Source of the DNA: Chlorella sorokiniana
Taxonomy: Eukaryota > Chlorophyta > Trebouxiophyceae > Chlorellales > Chlorellaceae
Length of the DNA: 64,000 nucleotides
Direction of reading: 5' to 3'
NCBI GenBank assembly: GCA_025917655.1
Contig: CP084616.1
Coordinates: 62,001-126,000 of the forward strand
The stretch's first letter is position 1, and each line of letters opens with the position of its first letter. The notes beneath the pieces are model-generated. The model worked only from the letters and a program-made list of their open reading frames with translations, was not told where the DNA came from and made no database searches. This document shows positions 12,801-20,337 of this stretch, piece by piece. Position numbers and translations under genes: made by a program.

Positions 12801-14880
12801 CCCCTCTGCGCCCCTGCCTGCCTCCCGCAGCTGCTGCGCCGCTGGCGCTCCGCTGCGGCGGCCGCCGCCCCCTCCTTCAAGCCCGCCGAGCTGAACCAGC
12901 TACACATAGTGGAGGTGGCGCTGCGGCTGGAGGCGCCCGGCATAGGTGGGTTGCGTGTGAGCGCCTTCGTCGGGGTGGGGTGATATCATGGGTGGGTGCG
13001 CAACTTGGGTTTTGGTGTAAAATGGTGGCAAGGAATGTTGTGGGGACTGCACCCCGAGCAGCTCTGACTGGCAGCCTGGACAGCGTATTAATTACAAACC
13101 TTCCTGCACACCTTCGTGTTTGTGGGTCATGGCCACTTATTTTGCCTCTTCAGCTGCCTCTCTCTCTCCCTCAGCACACACAGCAACCCAACCCTACACA
13201 GGCCTGGACCTGCCCCCCGAGAGGCCGCCGGTTTCTTCGACGGCCTCTACCGCACCGGCCGACTGCGGGGCCTGTCTGGCGGCGCCTGGCAGCGCACGCT
13301 GGCCGACGGGCCGCGCTCAGTGACGCAGTTCCAGCTGCAGGCAAGACTTCCGCTTGGTTTCTTTACTTTCCTCCGGTTTGCAATCTTCTCGAGGAAAAGG
13401 GAGCCCCAGTTTCGCTGCTTCTGCCGCCAGCGCGGGCCTTTTGCTGCTGTGCTGCCACTGCCAGGTTGCCGCCTGCACTGCTGCCGCGGCGGGGGCTGCC
13501 GGTTGGGGGCGCTGCTGCCGCCGGTGCCCTGCCACCGACACGACGACAGCAAAGGATATCCAAATTCCCTCCGCCGTGCTGCCCGCTGCTGCCTTCCGCT
13601 GCATGCGGCACACTTGACTTCCTTCAAGTGAGTTCCTGCCGTACCCGCTGCTTCAGGTTTATGAGGCGATGCGCGCGCTGGGTGCGCCGTGCCAGCTGGA
13701 GTGGAGCCCTGCTGGGGAATACTCCATCGACATCGCCCTGCCGCAGCAGCGAATAGCAGGTGCGCACGGCGCTGTCTGGTGCCTGCCCAGCAGCGCTTCG
13801 CGGTTGGGGCCTCAATAGTGTGCGTGTCGTTGCATTGGGCCCGCGTCCTGATGGAAGCACGGCCCGCAGCCTGTCGGGGGCCGTTTGGCAGGCTGCGCTT
13901 ACACTTGTTGTGTCTGTTCGTTTGATGCGGCAGTGGAAGCCGATGGCCCGCATCATTTCGCCTCAAACAGCCGCCACATCATGGGCGGCACGGTGCTCAA
14001 ACGCCGCCTGCTCAAGGTGGGTACCAGAGTCGGGCCAGAAGGCCGGCAGGCACCGTTTCCCTGCCGGTGCTGCCACTCCTCGGCTGCTGCGGCTGCTTCT
14101 GCGGCTTCTCTGCAGCGTGCCGGCTCTGCCTGTGTGCTGGCTGGGCGCGGCACTGCCCTCCCGCCCGCTTGGAGTGGAGCAGGCAGCGCTGCCGGCCTCC
14201 GCTCTCTTTTTGCTCGAAGAGCCTTGCCGCCTTGCACACAGATGCCCTGCGCCGTAATGCTCACTGCTTGTCTCTTCCTTCCGCGGCGCCCGCTGCGAGC
14301 AGGGCCTGGGCTGGCGGGCGGTGGACGTGCCGTTCTACGATTGGTGGGGCCTCGGCGAGGAGCAGCAGCGGGAGTACATGCGGCGCAAGCTGGAGGCAGC
14401 GGGGCTGCGGGTGGATGCAGCTGACCAGCAGCGAGCGGAGCAGAGGGAGGAGCAGGAGGAGGGTCGCAGCCCGTTGGCGGCGGCGGCGGCGCCGCCGGCC
14501 GTGGCAGCACCTGCAGCAGGGCATGCGGCAGCGCAGCTGGCACAGGCTGATGGTGTTCACGCAAGCAGTAGCAGCAGGGGCGATCCGGGAGTAGCAGCGA
14601 CCAGCAACCTGGCGCTGAAGGCGTCAGCGTGGCACAGCGTGCACAGCGGCTCAGCATGCTGCAGTACAGGCAAGGGAAGCTGTCGCGGAAGGGACTGCTG
14701 ACACGCAGCACGATGCAGGCTGCGGCTTCAGGCGCCAACGCGCCACCGCCAGCAGCATCAAGCGCAGCAACAGGGGCCCCAGACGCTGGCGGCGGCAATT
14801 CAGCAGCAGGTAGCGCAGGCAGCTTTGAAAGTTCCCTTGCAGCAGAGGGCGAGGATTCAGGCGAGACGGCAGCTCGCTAG
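9827..14880 (+). CDS. RAP-domain protein, probably an organelle RNA-binding factor
   Basis: This looks like a nuclear-encoded organelle gene-expression factor: helical repeats of the FASTK/OPR kind followed by a C-terminal RAP domain, a family that stabilises or processes specific plastid or mitochondrial RNAs. It starts at ATG 9827 with an Arg/Ala/Ser-rich, acid-poor N-terminus that fits a transit peptide. Exon 1 ends at 10261 and exon 2 starts at 10405. Repeat-like segments include FNMVNAVTAFHRLAK (about 10208-10250), GISLANLDPRSLCLL (about 10990), AVASLSWAYC (about 12198) and LSNLAWGLTVA (about 12600). The RAP domain spans roughly 13930-14400, with ADGPHHFA, HIMGGTVLKRRLL and WRAVDVPFYDWWGL. 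A low-complexity tail ends at TAG 14878-14880. Frame breaks near 10870, 11070 and 14600 look like single-base errors. The target RNA is unknown. Confidence 0.85.
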
Positions 14881-15575: not shown

Positions 15576-18500
15576 ATGGCTGGCAGGGCAGGCGCCGCTG
15601 GCGCCGCCGCTCCAGCGGCAGGCACATCGCCCAAGTTTGAGAGCATCGGCCTGTGGACCAACAAGGGCGGCGTCGGGAAGACTACGCTGAGCTTTCATCT
15701 GTCAACCATGTATGCGTATCTGAACCCATCCAAACGTGTGGTGGTGTTGGACATGTGCCCACAAGCCAACCTGTCCAATACACTCCTAACCAGCCTGTCG
15801 CCAGCACGTGCGGAGCTGCAAGCAGCGCTGCTGTTTACTCCTGTGGCTGCCCCGCACCAAAATGGCATTATGGCCTTTCCCTTTGTGTCCTTCTCGTTGC
15901 CTTCAGTGCAATCTGATGCCTGCTTGCTTTGCATGCAGAGAGGGGATCAGAGGTTGTGGCCCAGCTGAAGCAAATACACCATAACCTGCAAGGGCCACGT
16001 ACGGTTGCCGGTTATCTCCATCGCATGCTGAACCCAGTGGTTGCAGGCATGATGCCTGTCCAGTTCTCAAGTAAGTGGCAAGGAGGGTCCACTTACATGA
16101 CTTACAAGACTTAAATGACATGTATGCCATCCTTTCTGCAGATTATCTTGTGAAGCTGGATGGCTACAATCACTCATTGCCTGATAATATGTGGCTCTTC
16201 TGTGGTGATAGTCGACTGGGTGCGTACCAGCATTTCCGCTGCTTGTCCAGGCTGTTAGCCATTATAAGACAGAAGAATGAACATAATCACTGCATTTTGG
16301 TCCACCTTTGCCAAATAGCGCACTCACATAAACTCTGACTATTTGTTACTTGCTGCCTTACCCGTTGCAGATGATCTAAGCAGCGCGATAGGCAATGCAA
16401 TGAAACAGCCTATCACAGCTTTTGGCGACCCATTTGAGATCACACTGTCGCGCCTGCGTTTTTCTTCAAAGAGTTACTTTCTGAGGCTGACTGGGCGGGC
16501 CAAGATGTTGTAGTTTTCATCGATTCTAACCCTGCCTTTACCGAGTATACACAGCTGGCTCTTTGTGAGTTCACATGGTGATGTTGCAGGGAAGCACCAA
16601 CACCAGCTGTGTCATTGGCATGCATACAATTGACCATTTGTTTCCATCCAAGCTGCAGGCACCATGGACAAGTTGGTTGTGCCTGTGAACGCAGATGATT
16701 TTTCCTTGCAAGCTGTGGACTATATGTTCAACAAGTAAGCGCTTTCTTTCAGCTTGGGCGGCAAACAAGTTGTTTCAATATGCTCCGAAATGCTGCAAGT
16801 TACGAACTGTTTAAACATGTTCGCAGAATTTGGGGCCTTTATGGAATGGACGACGCGTTTTTCGGTTGCAATGCAGGCTGATTCGTTTGCTGCTAGAGCA
16901 TCCGCCCATCCAGCCAGGAGATTACTGTTACCCAAAATTGCCACAATAATTCACAACCGCCATAATATCAACAGAACCAGGGTTGTGAGACCTTTCCTGC
17001 ATCTCCAACAGGAGGCTGCAGAACGCATATTTGCTGCATATGCGGAAGCCAGACAGCATAGTATTGCAGTGTTTTTGGACAGAGGTGCCCCAAATGAGGA
17101 GCAGTTTGATTTGCTTTTTACAGGTCCAGTTTGATGCAGCTTTGCTCATGCAAATTTCTGTGACAATCTGAGTCCATAAAACTGATCAATTGCATCTATT
17201 TGTGTGCAGGCACTATGCGGGAAATGTTCAGCACCGGTGTTGTATCTGCTCATACCGGTGTGCCGCTCCACAGAGTTCTGGACTGCAAGGCAGAGATTGG
17301 GAAGTCATTCGGCGCGTCCATCAGCCTGCAGCCGAGCACCACACGCAACTTGATAGCAGTGAGAGACATGCCGCACATGCTTATAAACTGACATGCAGGC
17401 ATGAAGTACAGATTTGCAAGCAGGCAGCATAACTTGCTTGCGCATACCACAACAGGCAGCGCAGATATTGAATGCACTCCGTAACACTGGCTTCTTGTTG
17501 TAGGACCTTTTGAAAGTCCTTTCTGTGGTAACCGATGATTTTGATTTCAAGTCTCCATCCATCAGTGAAGTGCGGCTGCTTAAACTCCTGAATGCTGACA
17601 GCAGACATGCGCTAAAGCAGCACATCAAATGGACCAGGTTTGTAATGCTGAGCGACTGACCTTCCACTGAACTGCTAGCAGCCTGCCAGCAATTGAAAGG
17701 TGCCTGTATACCTGCAGGCGCAAGACTGCTGCGCGGGCCGCAGCGGAAGCTGCAACGGCCCCAGAAAGGTATGATCCTGGTGCAACCGGCTCGGTGAGTG
17801 CTTGAGGGAGAAAAGGCTATGGGTCAATGAAGGCACTGGTTGATTTGTAGGGCTGTTGGATCCCTTATTTGGCATTTTTCACTGAGCTTTGAGACACCGC
17901 TCTGGGGGACAGCAGTTGTACTAGAAAAAGCAACACCATCCGCTGTTAACAATGTTCTTCAATTCTACATGCAGTCTGATGAGTCTGATGACAACTTTGA
18001 AGATGTGGATGACCAGGCAGACGCTGACGTGAAGGCTCGTGCCTTCAAACTCACCAATAACAGCTGCGGCCCCGACTCGCTCACTGTGGTTGCGGCCGTC
18101 ACCGTGCTTGCATCCCTTGCCGAGCTCACCGCTGAGATTTCGCCAAGCTTTGAGGTTGCCGCGGCTAGCTTCGAGCAGCTGGCAGTGATGACACGCAGGT
18201 TGATCCACCAGACCGCACGCAACCCCAGCGTGATCAACAGAACAATTGAGGCGCAGCTGGCAGATGTCCAACGGACAGTGATGCAGCGCATGGCAGAACA
18301 GCTTCCTAGCATGACCACCGGCATGACCACCGACCTCCGGGACCTCTTAGCAGCGCTCTGCACGCAGCCAGGCACAGGTGCCGTGCGCATGCCCTTTGCG
18401 CTGGTAACAGAGACCATTCGGCACTGCAGCTTCGAGCACTGTAGCGGCCAAGAACCGCATCAGCCAGAGGAGCTGTTCTGCGTTGAGATTACCGGGAGCG

Positions 18501-20337
18501 ACGTTGTCAGCGGGCCCCTACATGGTATGGTGCACCCCGGCTCCGGCTTGTATGACATGGAGAACTGCCTGCAGCGCTGTGCAACTCTTTATGGGGAGTC
18601 CGAGGTTGACAGCTGCCCTACCTGCAATGGCAAGCGGCGCTCAGAGGTTGTTGTGCACAGCCTGCCAAAGTGGCTGCCCGTGTTGTTGAGGTGAGTTTCA
18701 GTCTTGGCATGACCAATGTTGCCACACAATTGTGCTGCATGGGTGCATCAGTGCAAACCCCTTTACTGGCTTCATGTGGGCACGCAATTTCATTCCGTTC
18801 CTGGTTCTTGCAGGCGCACAAAACCGGACTACTTCTCTGTGCCAGACGATATGGACACGCGTGCTGGCCCAGACCCAGTCACCGCCACCGCACTGCGGCT
18901 CTATGAGCATCCCGCACAGCCGGTGGAGTTTGACCTGCGTGCCATGTTTGTGCTGCGACACAATCACCACACCGTGTACTTTCGGGCAGGGCCAGGTATG
19001 GCTGCTTGATGGGACCATGATGCGCAAAGTCAGTCCGCTTGACTGTGCTGTTATGCTTTTCACACTACCCGTTTCCTTCAAGGATCGCAGGCAGTGATGA
19101 CGCCCGGGCGGGACTGCTAGAGGGGTGGTACTACTATGATGATAGGGATAACGGGCGCATCAGGGCGTCTGGCACCACTTTTCCAGTGATGCAGAACGGC
19201 GAGGCTCCATACAACATTTCTGGCCTGCTTTATGAGCGATTGGAGCCCACCTCAATGCATACCAGCCCTGGGGTGAGTTCCTTACTGCTTAGCATTGATC
19301 CTGCATGCTTCGTGCTCGCGCAAAATTCATACAGCCCCATCAATAAGCAAGCCTATTTAATTCTCTCTGAGAGACTTTCCCCTACCCTGTTGTGCTCTGC
19401 AGTCAGTCACCCCTGCTCGAAAGATGCCCGCTGGGTGCATTGAGCTGTCAGCTGGCCACGCAAATATGAGCGCAGAGGCAGCAGCCATTTTCAAGCAGGC
19501 GCCTTTGGGGTGGCTAGCTAGCGCGGATGTGGTTCAGGTCCTCTTGGGGAGCGCTGAGATGGGCGTCCCCCTGTCCACCGAGGCACCTCAATTGCCAGGC
19601 CGTAAGCAGCATTAGGGCTTTCGCTGGCTGCATTGCCGTTTATCTGCTTCATGAGAATAAGGCAGCCGCATCATTGGCAATGCTGCCAGCTGCCCGCTTT
19701 CTGAAATTCTGCATGTGCAGGGGGCGAGATTTTCATGTTTGACAAGAAGCAAATGGGCCATCGCTATCGCCAAGATGGTCACAGCTGGAAAAAGGCAGAC
19801 AAGTGCATCGTCAAAAAAACTGTGAAAAGTGAGCCTCAACACCATGCCGCGCCTTCCTGCCCTGCATTTTGCGAGGCCCCAGCACCGCATGTACTGCCTG
19901 TGCAATTGGGCTACTGTTGATTTCGTTCTTCAGGGTGGCCAAGGCATGTGCCTCACAACAACATCTTTTTGTGTTGCAGTGGACGACAACATTACTGTGC
20001 AGCTTTGCACCACAATCTCGTCAAGTGATGGTGGACGCCTTGAGGTGTGTGTGTCAGTGTTCACAAGAAGTATGCGACATGCAACTCTGTGTTCAGTGCT
20101 GCCACACACCCGGAAATGACTTGATGAATATGTTGCCACTTGCCCCCGCACCCCGTACTTATCCACCCTTGCCCTCACCCCCACCCCGGGTCGCAGCGCC
20201 GTATCTACCACATCAAGAGCACGCAGGAGCATGAGAACCCGGCCCGAGTGGTGCACTACCACCAGCCCTCCGAAAGCACAGTTAAGGACAAGTGGCCAAC
20301 TGATGCAGCTGGCCTTGACACGACACCAAGGAAGTAA
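15576..20337 (+). CDS. Composite protein: ParA/Soj-like ATPase, USP-type deubiquitinase, CG-1 domain
   Basis: Three domains are fused in one 17-exon gene. First is a ParA/Soj ATPase with the deviant Walker A KGGVGKTT, then VVLDMCPQANLS, FIDSNPAFTEYTQLA and VVPVNADDFSLQAVDY (15576 to about 17360). Second, after an acidic linker, is a USP domain (about 18025-19180): the Cys box NNSCGPDSL, a CPTC knuckle before VVVHSLPKWLPVLLRR, the His-box region HHTVYFRAG and WYYYDDRDNGRI. Third is a CG-1 domain (about 19440-20270) with APLGWLASADVV, GEIFMFDKKQMGHRYRQDGH and ERRIYHI. The two linker junctions, 17793/17975 and 19272/19403, are both phase 0 with no stop between domains, which supports one reading frame. 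Exons: 15576-15807, 15939-16070, 16142-16219, 16371-16564, 16659-16734, 16827-17123, 17210-17358, 17504-17637, 17718-17793, 17975-18690, 18814-18995, 19091-19272, 19403-19601, 19721-19828, 19980-20044 and 20197-20337; the 16827-17123 block probably hides an intron or indel near 16880. One base seems missing in the T run at 16459. Function is inferred only: DNA-associated deubiquitination under ATPase control. Confidence 0.85.

Follow-up and report, generated by a model that had tools for sequence, protein, structure and literature searches.

An unusual candidate gene of Chlorella sorokiniana joining ParA-type, USP-like and CAMTA-type CG-1 exons

The holding of DNA by ParA ATPases, the site preference of CG-1 domains and the protease action on ubiquitin are each established for their own separate families. 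Phage and plasmid ParA proteins, exemplified by the family phrog_164, the ParA-like partition protein of Pseudomonas phage phi297 and WP_023259654.1 from an Escherichia albertii plasmid, have in common a deviant Walker A, CPQAN and FID(S/C)NP(A/S)F motifs. The bacterial forms of ParA compared here are free-standing: measured from a point some 12 residues ahead of Walker A, 30 of 34 alignment rows are 338-352 amino acids (aa) long, the other four being shorter and none longer. We know of no ParA ATPase of the phage or plasmid type from a eukaryotic nucleus. The USP deubiquitinases (Pfam UCH PF00443, peptidase C19) carry, in the same order, a Cys box, a CxxC with LPxxL...LxR, HxTxYxR and WYxxDD, and this motif set is used for comparison below. 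CAMTA factors have the CG-1 domain in common, and CAMTA-like proteins with CG-1, TIG and ankyrin domains are reported from Ostreococcus and Coccomyxa (PMC4770041). Our analysis concerns a locus at positions 15576-20337 of a 64,000-nucleotide stretch of Chlorella sorokiniana DNA (contig CP084616.1, positions 62,001 to 126,000; the whole stretch is termed the window), in which parts resembling all three families follow one another. On balance, we favour the view that a single nuclear gene, present now or until recently, occupies the locus in a eukaryote resembling a green alga, and that it arose by the joining of a bacterial/phage-type ParA, a divergent USP-like peptidase and CAMTA-type CG-1 exons. 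It appears to be a real and unusual fusion, probably a single transcription unit, in uncertain health. An earlier, sequence-only reading of this DNA had known of no described protein with such an order of domains, and our literature searches agree with it, since no paper on a ParA, USP-like and CG-1 architecture was found among the matches listed.

The three parts and their relatives

The N-terminal ParA piece matched AAA_31 with 36.4 bits (E=6.5e-9; cut-off 27) and CbiA with 35.5 bits (cut-off 25.4), while the middle piece reached 25.8 bits against AAA_31, slightly below the same cut-off. The deviant Walker A encoded by exon 1 (KGGVGKTT, with the signature lysine) places the protein among the ParA/MinD P-loop ATPases. 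The motifs DMCPQANLS and FIDSNPAF follow in order and align with identical or near-identical motifs in all 15 phage/plasmid rows. Both the N-terminal and the middle piece matched phrog_164, annotated as 'ParA-like partition protein', and the NCBIfam model ParA_partition gave 32.2 bits, far below its cut-off of 180. Relatives of ParA were present in 152 plasmid records and 3 phage records. In addition, the N-terminal piece had 27 relatives among 38 stretches in viral_contigs (on contigs of 4-97 kb), 22 relatives (loci) among 45 stretches in prokaryote genomes and eight matches among PDB sequences (Soj/segregation, ArsA and one uncharacterized protein; best E 7e-5).

With the 15 phage/plasmid rows the three ParA pieces are colinear over about 335 residues, starting at Walker A and reaching the C-terminus, some piece ends having been misplaced by the aligner. 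The C-terminal piece, which had no plasmid match and no Pfam, PHROG or NCBIfam match by itself, is assigned to ParA because of this colinearity with bacterial ParA. Identity ranges from 28 to 36% to all 23 bacterial, phage and plasmid rows over 253-374 alignment columns, the rows representing 23 of 50 loci. In a tree of these rows and the algal pieces, the algal row sits on a very long branch, flagged as such by the program, and joins no bacterial group. These data support a bacterial-type origin of the ParA part, and neither a donor nor a date is given by the tree or the identities. Unlike free-standing bacterial ParA, the algal gene contains introns, extra domains and two frame changes. Six AAA_31 places were found in the same genome outside the window and were considered as relatives. 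The four that were read were rejected, as by eye they look like ChlL (C15), an Nbp35-like protein (C8:1403590) and two Get3/ArsA-like proteins (C7 and C3); the other two lie on the minus strand (C15:28361 and C8:1243542). On one phage contig (L019, 3981-6047), a related ParA gene comes after a gene that by eye resembles a LexA/cI-type repressor, and this adjacency may point to a role in lysogeny.

The CG-1 domain scored 50.9 bits (E=1.5e-13; cut-off 23.5) over positions 5-114 of the 116 of its profile, and the match ends 24 residues short of the C-terminus. In an exon-wise family search of the same genome, the only CG-1 matches reported were two on contig C2 (60.2 and 51.4 bits). We take the CG-1 residues on C2 to resemble those of a typical CAMTA. 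In this CAMTA-like gene (C2:3784610-3785000), the CG-1 introns are located by eye just before GGQLFLF and VGNAETLNC, both in phase 1; in the window gene, introns 13 and 14 are located just before GEIFMF and before MDDNITVQLC, again both in phase 1. Introns 13 and 14 thus match both C2 introns in place and phase, intron 15 (phase 0) being extra. Since both CG-1 introns are common to the two genes, a CAMTA-type gene was most likely the source of the CG-1 part, which would have been passed on as DNA. Plant CAMTA genes also have intron phase profiles that start 1,1 (PMC4770041), a comparison of phases and not of positions. The best local identity between the window CG-1 and the C2 gene, 40% over 30 residues, suggests that the acquisition was an old event. 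Among PDB sequences nothing meaningful was found for this part (best E 0.73). The fusion gene differs from CAMTA factors in that CG-1 is C-terminal. No TIG, ankyrin or IQ/CaM-binding region was found after it, and a 732-aa piece of the predicted protein matches no Pfam family other than CG-1 at E<=1.

Lying between ParA and CG-1, the region 17975-19272 looks to us like a divergent peptidase of USP-like kind, unproven as a USP, in which Cys, His and Asp residues are likely to be catalytic. Candidate catalytic boxes (NNSC, HHTVYFR and WYYYDD) and a CPTC motif stand by eye in the expected order. Compared with USPs, the Cys box falls outside the profile match, there is one clear CxxC, and the His of the His box has no preceding Gly. 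The profile scores depend on the acceptor chosen for exon 12, and all have to be read against the curated UCH cut-off of 23.9 bits. For the C-terminal USP-like piece, UCH was the sole Pfam family reported with acceptor 19091 (11.5 bits, E=0.22), and it rose to 14.6 bits (E=0.025; profile 128-239 of 254) with acceptor 19121, which shortens the stretch from the His box to WYYYDD by ten residues without altering the phase. When the region was taken whole, UCH went unreported at E<=10 with 19091 (356 aa), where only DUF5682 appeared (8.3 bits, E=0.89), and gave 13.8 bits (E=0.045) with 19121, next to DUF5682 at 8.3 bits. In the 732-aa piece UCH was unreported at E<=1, and the search of PDB sequences with the USP-like part gave no meaningful match (best E 0.3). 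A His-box profile made from five USP segments of the same genome scored 10.8 bits in the window with acceptor 19121, a value reached by none of 20,000 shuffles, and 4.8 bits with 19091, reached by 59 of 20,000; however, acceptor 19121 was picked after the spacing had been seen, and so the strong result is no independent proof. The UCH/USP-like matches grouped at C4:408938-454308 (L054, L062, L066 and L067) are probably repeated copies of one USP gene; in three of them the C-terminal segment (LYRLRAMVCYYGRHYSAFV...WVTFDD) is nearly the same. These copies were tried as relatives of the window region and rejected, as by eye they resemble other USPs instead.

The sequence-only reading had named a ParA ATPase, a USP catalytic core and a CG-1 domain devoid of its usual CAMTA partners. 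Its ParA motifs and its CG-1 domain are borne out by the profiles, and the missing CAMTA domains are indeed absent as far as Pfam shows. The USP core was asserted more firmly than the profiles allow, although its motifs do occur in order. The profile search of the spliced protein that had been suggested as a check places the N-terminal ParA piece (AAA_31 and CbiA) and CG-1 over their cut-offs and UCH below.

Exon map and reading frame

The gene model (15576-20337, plus strand), derived from frames and splice sites, has 16 exons in the order ParA, USP-like, CG-1 (Table 1). Its 15 introns measure 71-181 nucleotides (nt) and 14 of them end in GCAG, GT-AG ends being a condition imposed on the choice of introns. 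The donor of exon 1 (CAC/GTGCGG) is weak, and it is possible that the true first exon is further upstream. The evidence that joins the parts is a spliced frame that begins within exon 6, ends with the stop codon at 20337 and stays open over 2,190 nt (stop included) across 10 introns. When this frame was shuffled with dinucleotides preserved, the mean was 24.3 stops and the minimum 11, and none of 1000 shuffles was stop-free. In this one open frame, the USP-like region is tied to the C-terminus of ParA on one side and to CG-1 on the other. The junctions 17793/17975 and 19272/19403, singled out by the sequence-only reading as those that connect the domains, are GT-AG, in frame and the same as in our model. 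Its single gene and its domain order agree with the phases of the exons and with the open frame, with the reservation that ParA is interrupted by two frame changes. Its statement that no stop lies between the domains is borne out from exon 6 onwards but not across the ParA part, where the frame changes in exons 4 and 6 had been missed.

Table 1. Features of the predicted fusion gene, in window positions
Feature	Positions	Strand	Evidence
Exons 1-3: start codon, ParA deviant Walker A KGGVGKTT, Walker A' DMCPQANLS	15576-15807, 15939-16070, 16142-16219	+	Frames, junctions, AAA_31 6.5e-9, CbiA 1.1e-8, phrog_164 ParA-like 5e-14
Exon 4: ParA middle, Walker B FIDSNPAF, first frame change inside 16442-16471	16371-16564	+	Translations; phage/plasmid ParA alignment
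Exons 5-6: ParA middle to C-terminal part, second frame change ~16846-16885	16659-16734, 16827-17123	+	phrog_164 1.1e-7 (piece from exon 4 end to exon 6 start)
Exons 7-9: last ParA homology and linker	17210-17358, 17504-17637, 17718-17793	+	One open frame with exon 6; colinear with bacterial ParA C-terminus
Exons 10-12: USP-like region	17975-18690, 18814-18995, 19091 or 19121-19272	+	NNSCGPDSL, CPTC...LPKWLPVLLRR, HHTVYFR, WYYYDD; UCH under cut-off; His-box profile
Exons 13-16: CG-1 domain, stop	19403-19601, 19721-19828, 19980-20044, 20197-20337	+	CG-1 50.9 bits; introns 13 and 14 as in C2 CAMTA-like gene

The window belongs to contig C11, which is 2.1 Mb long, in a genome of 38.8 Mb and 15 contigs. 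One of these, the 118-kb contig C15, has a match that by eye reads like ChlL, as would suit the plastid contig of a green alga. The GC content of the window is 65.6%, and that of the fusion gene's exons ranges from 0.44 to 0.67. Upstream, on the same strand, there is a RAP-domain gene (13650-14430 +; RAP 58.5 bits with exons joined by eye), which also matches REase_MTES_1575 with 29.5 bits, under the cut-off of that family. Downstream, none of five pieces from neighbouring open reading frames had a Pfam match.

Frame changes within ParA and rival explanations

A number of observations weigh against a single intact gene. The ParA homology switches frame within 16442-16471 in exon 4 and again at about 16846-16885 in exon 6, the homology to phage/plasmid ParA lying in different frames on either side of the exon 4 change. 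A literal translation from 15576 terminates in exon 4, so that in the assembled sequence the ParA reading frame is interrupted and Walker A is out of frame with the rest of the gene. Two such changes in about 0.4 kb exceed the background of this genome, where 57 HSP70 and 55 CCT exon matches (112 in all), inspected by eye, contained one candidate frame change lacking an intron. The latter, at about C3:1270967 among HSP70-family matches at C3:1270819-1271083, has no room for an intron and is possibly an assembly indel or a damaged copy. It would thus look as if the assembly or the genome has some such frame changes, though they seem rare. Furthermore, TGTAA, a usual green-algal poly(A) signal, is found at 17641 in intron 8, and the plus strand has no further copy between that point and 24000. 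For the USP-like region, UCH stays below its cut-off with either acceptor, and an earlier His-box profile of six segments gave 2.9 bits on the whole region, a score as high being seen in 49 of 5,000 shuffles. Finally, no relative with the same domain order was found in viral_contigs or genome_contigs.

Both intervals were inspected by eye for an intron whose splicing would restore the frame; none fitting GT-AG and the homology was found, and the intervals are too short for one. Each interval holds a run of five T (the 2,961 nt of exons hold eight runs of at least five). The nine-base word around these two runs occurs at 16456 and 16855, once per interval, and these are its sole two copies in the window on either strand. 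We read the two changes as assembly indels or as a recent loss in this strain. Ribosomal frameshifting past both of them at the shared word is unlikely, because the two shifts run in opposite senses. The frame changes could also mean that the gene is decaying, with ParA truly frameshifted and with nothing surviving, or else a downstream USP-like and CG-1 protein expressed from an internal start or by splicing around ParA. This is in our view an unlikely but serious alternative: the changes leave no room for an intron, and the GC content at third codon positions in the ParA C-terminal part (0.51) is the lowest of the four parts measured. However, the remaining 2,190 nt are stop-free until the end, and the restriction of the nine-base word to the two intervals would suit slippage, or an artefact of the local sequence context, better than diffuse decay.

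The TGTAA at 17641, directly after exon 8, raises the question of whether two adjacent genes have been wrongly merged, i.e., an acquired ParA gene whose end lies in exon 8 or beyond it, and a USP-like and CG-1 gene behind it. Reading through intron 8 soon meets a stop by eye, and the bacterial relatives, with the lengths given above, stop where the ParA homology stops. Nevertheless, exons 6-16 hold one frame over every intron, and TGTAA, which the plus strand of the window contains 19 times, is expected by chance about 1.4 times in 4.8 kb, so we regard a merger as improbable. An inserted mobile-element or giant-virus gene appears highly improbable, even though ParA is of phage type and GC is locally low (0.48 and 0.56 in the 2-kb steps across 16001-20000, against 0.66 in the window). 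The gene has 15 introns and CAMTA intron positions. When the 732-aa piece was searched against the same genome, all 11 matches were at this locus and a single copy was found, such match counts being lower bounds. Out of 15 inverted-repeat pairs, two flank the gene, both of them short and rich in GC, with 78% and 87% complementarity; no convincing terminal repeats were found around the gene. The sequence-only reading had suggested looking for the same order in large DNA viruses, and none turned up in viral_contigs. The USP-like part gave two stretches there and no relative, while the CG-1 part gave no stretch, and within this collection a viral origin was rejected on this ground. In prokaryote genomes (genome_contigs), the 732-aa piece gave 23 stretches and no relative. 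We thus continue to favour one nuclear gene, present or recent.

Proposed function and meaning

If the fusion protein is made, it would be located on nuclear DNA. An ATP-bound ParA dimer would hold the DNA without sequence preference, lengthening the stay of the protein, and CG-1 would supply site preference. The USP-like part would then strip ubiquitin or a ubiquitin-like tag off nearby chromatin proteins, with ATP hydrolysis limiting the residence time on DNA. By analogy with the separate families, the chromatin-bound deubiquitinase gated by ATP that the sequence-only reading proposed may be considered a fair guess. It is a more tentative proposal, and one we hold with some doubt, that the locus encodes a functional nuclear protein of three parts: a phage-type ParA, once captured, would under the control of ATP clamp or position on DNA a ubiquitin-removing enzyme that CG-1 steers to chosen sites. 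If true, a partition motor would have been converted to a chromatin ubiquitin switch. The introns held in common with CAMTA would reveal the route by which CG-1 entered, namely that CAMTA-type exons were duplicated as DNA, neither as a retrocopy nor through a virus. A fusion of ParA with a ubiquitin-protease-like part and the DNA-binding domain of a transcription factor would be a rare example of eukaryotic chromatin control having taken over a partition ATPase from bacteria.

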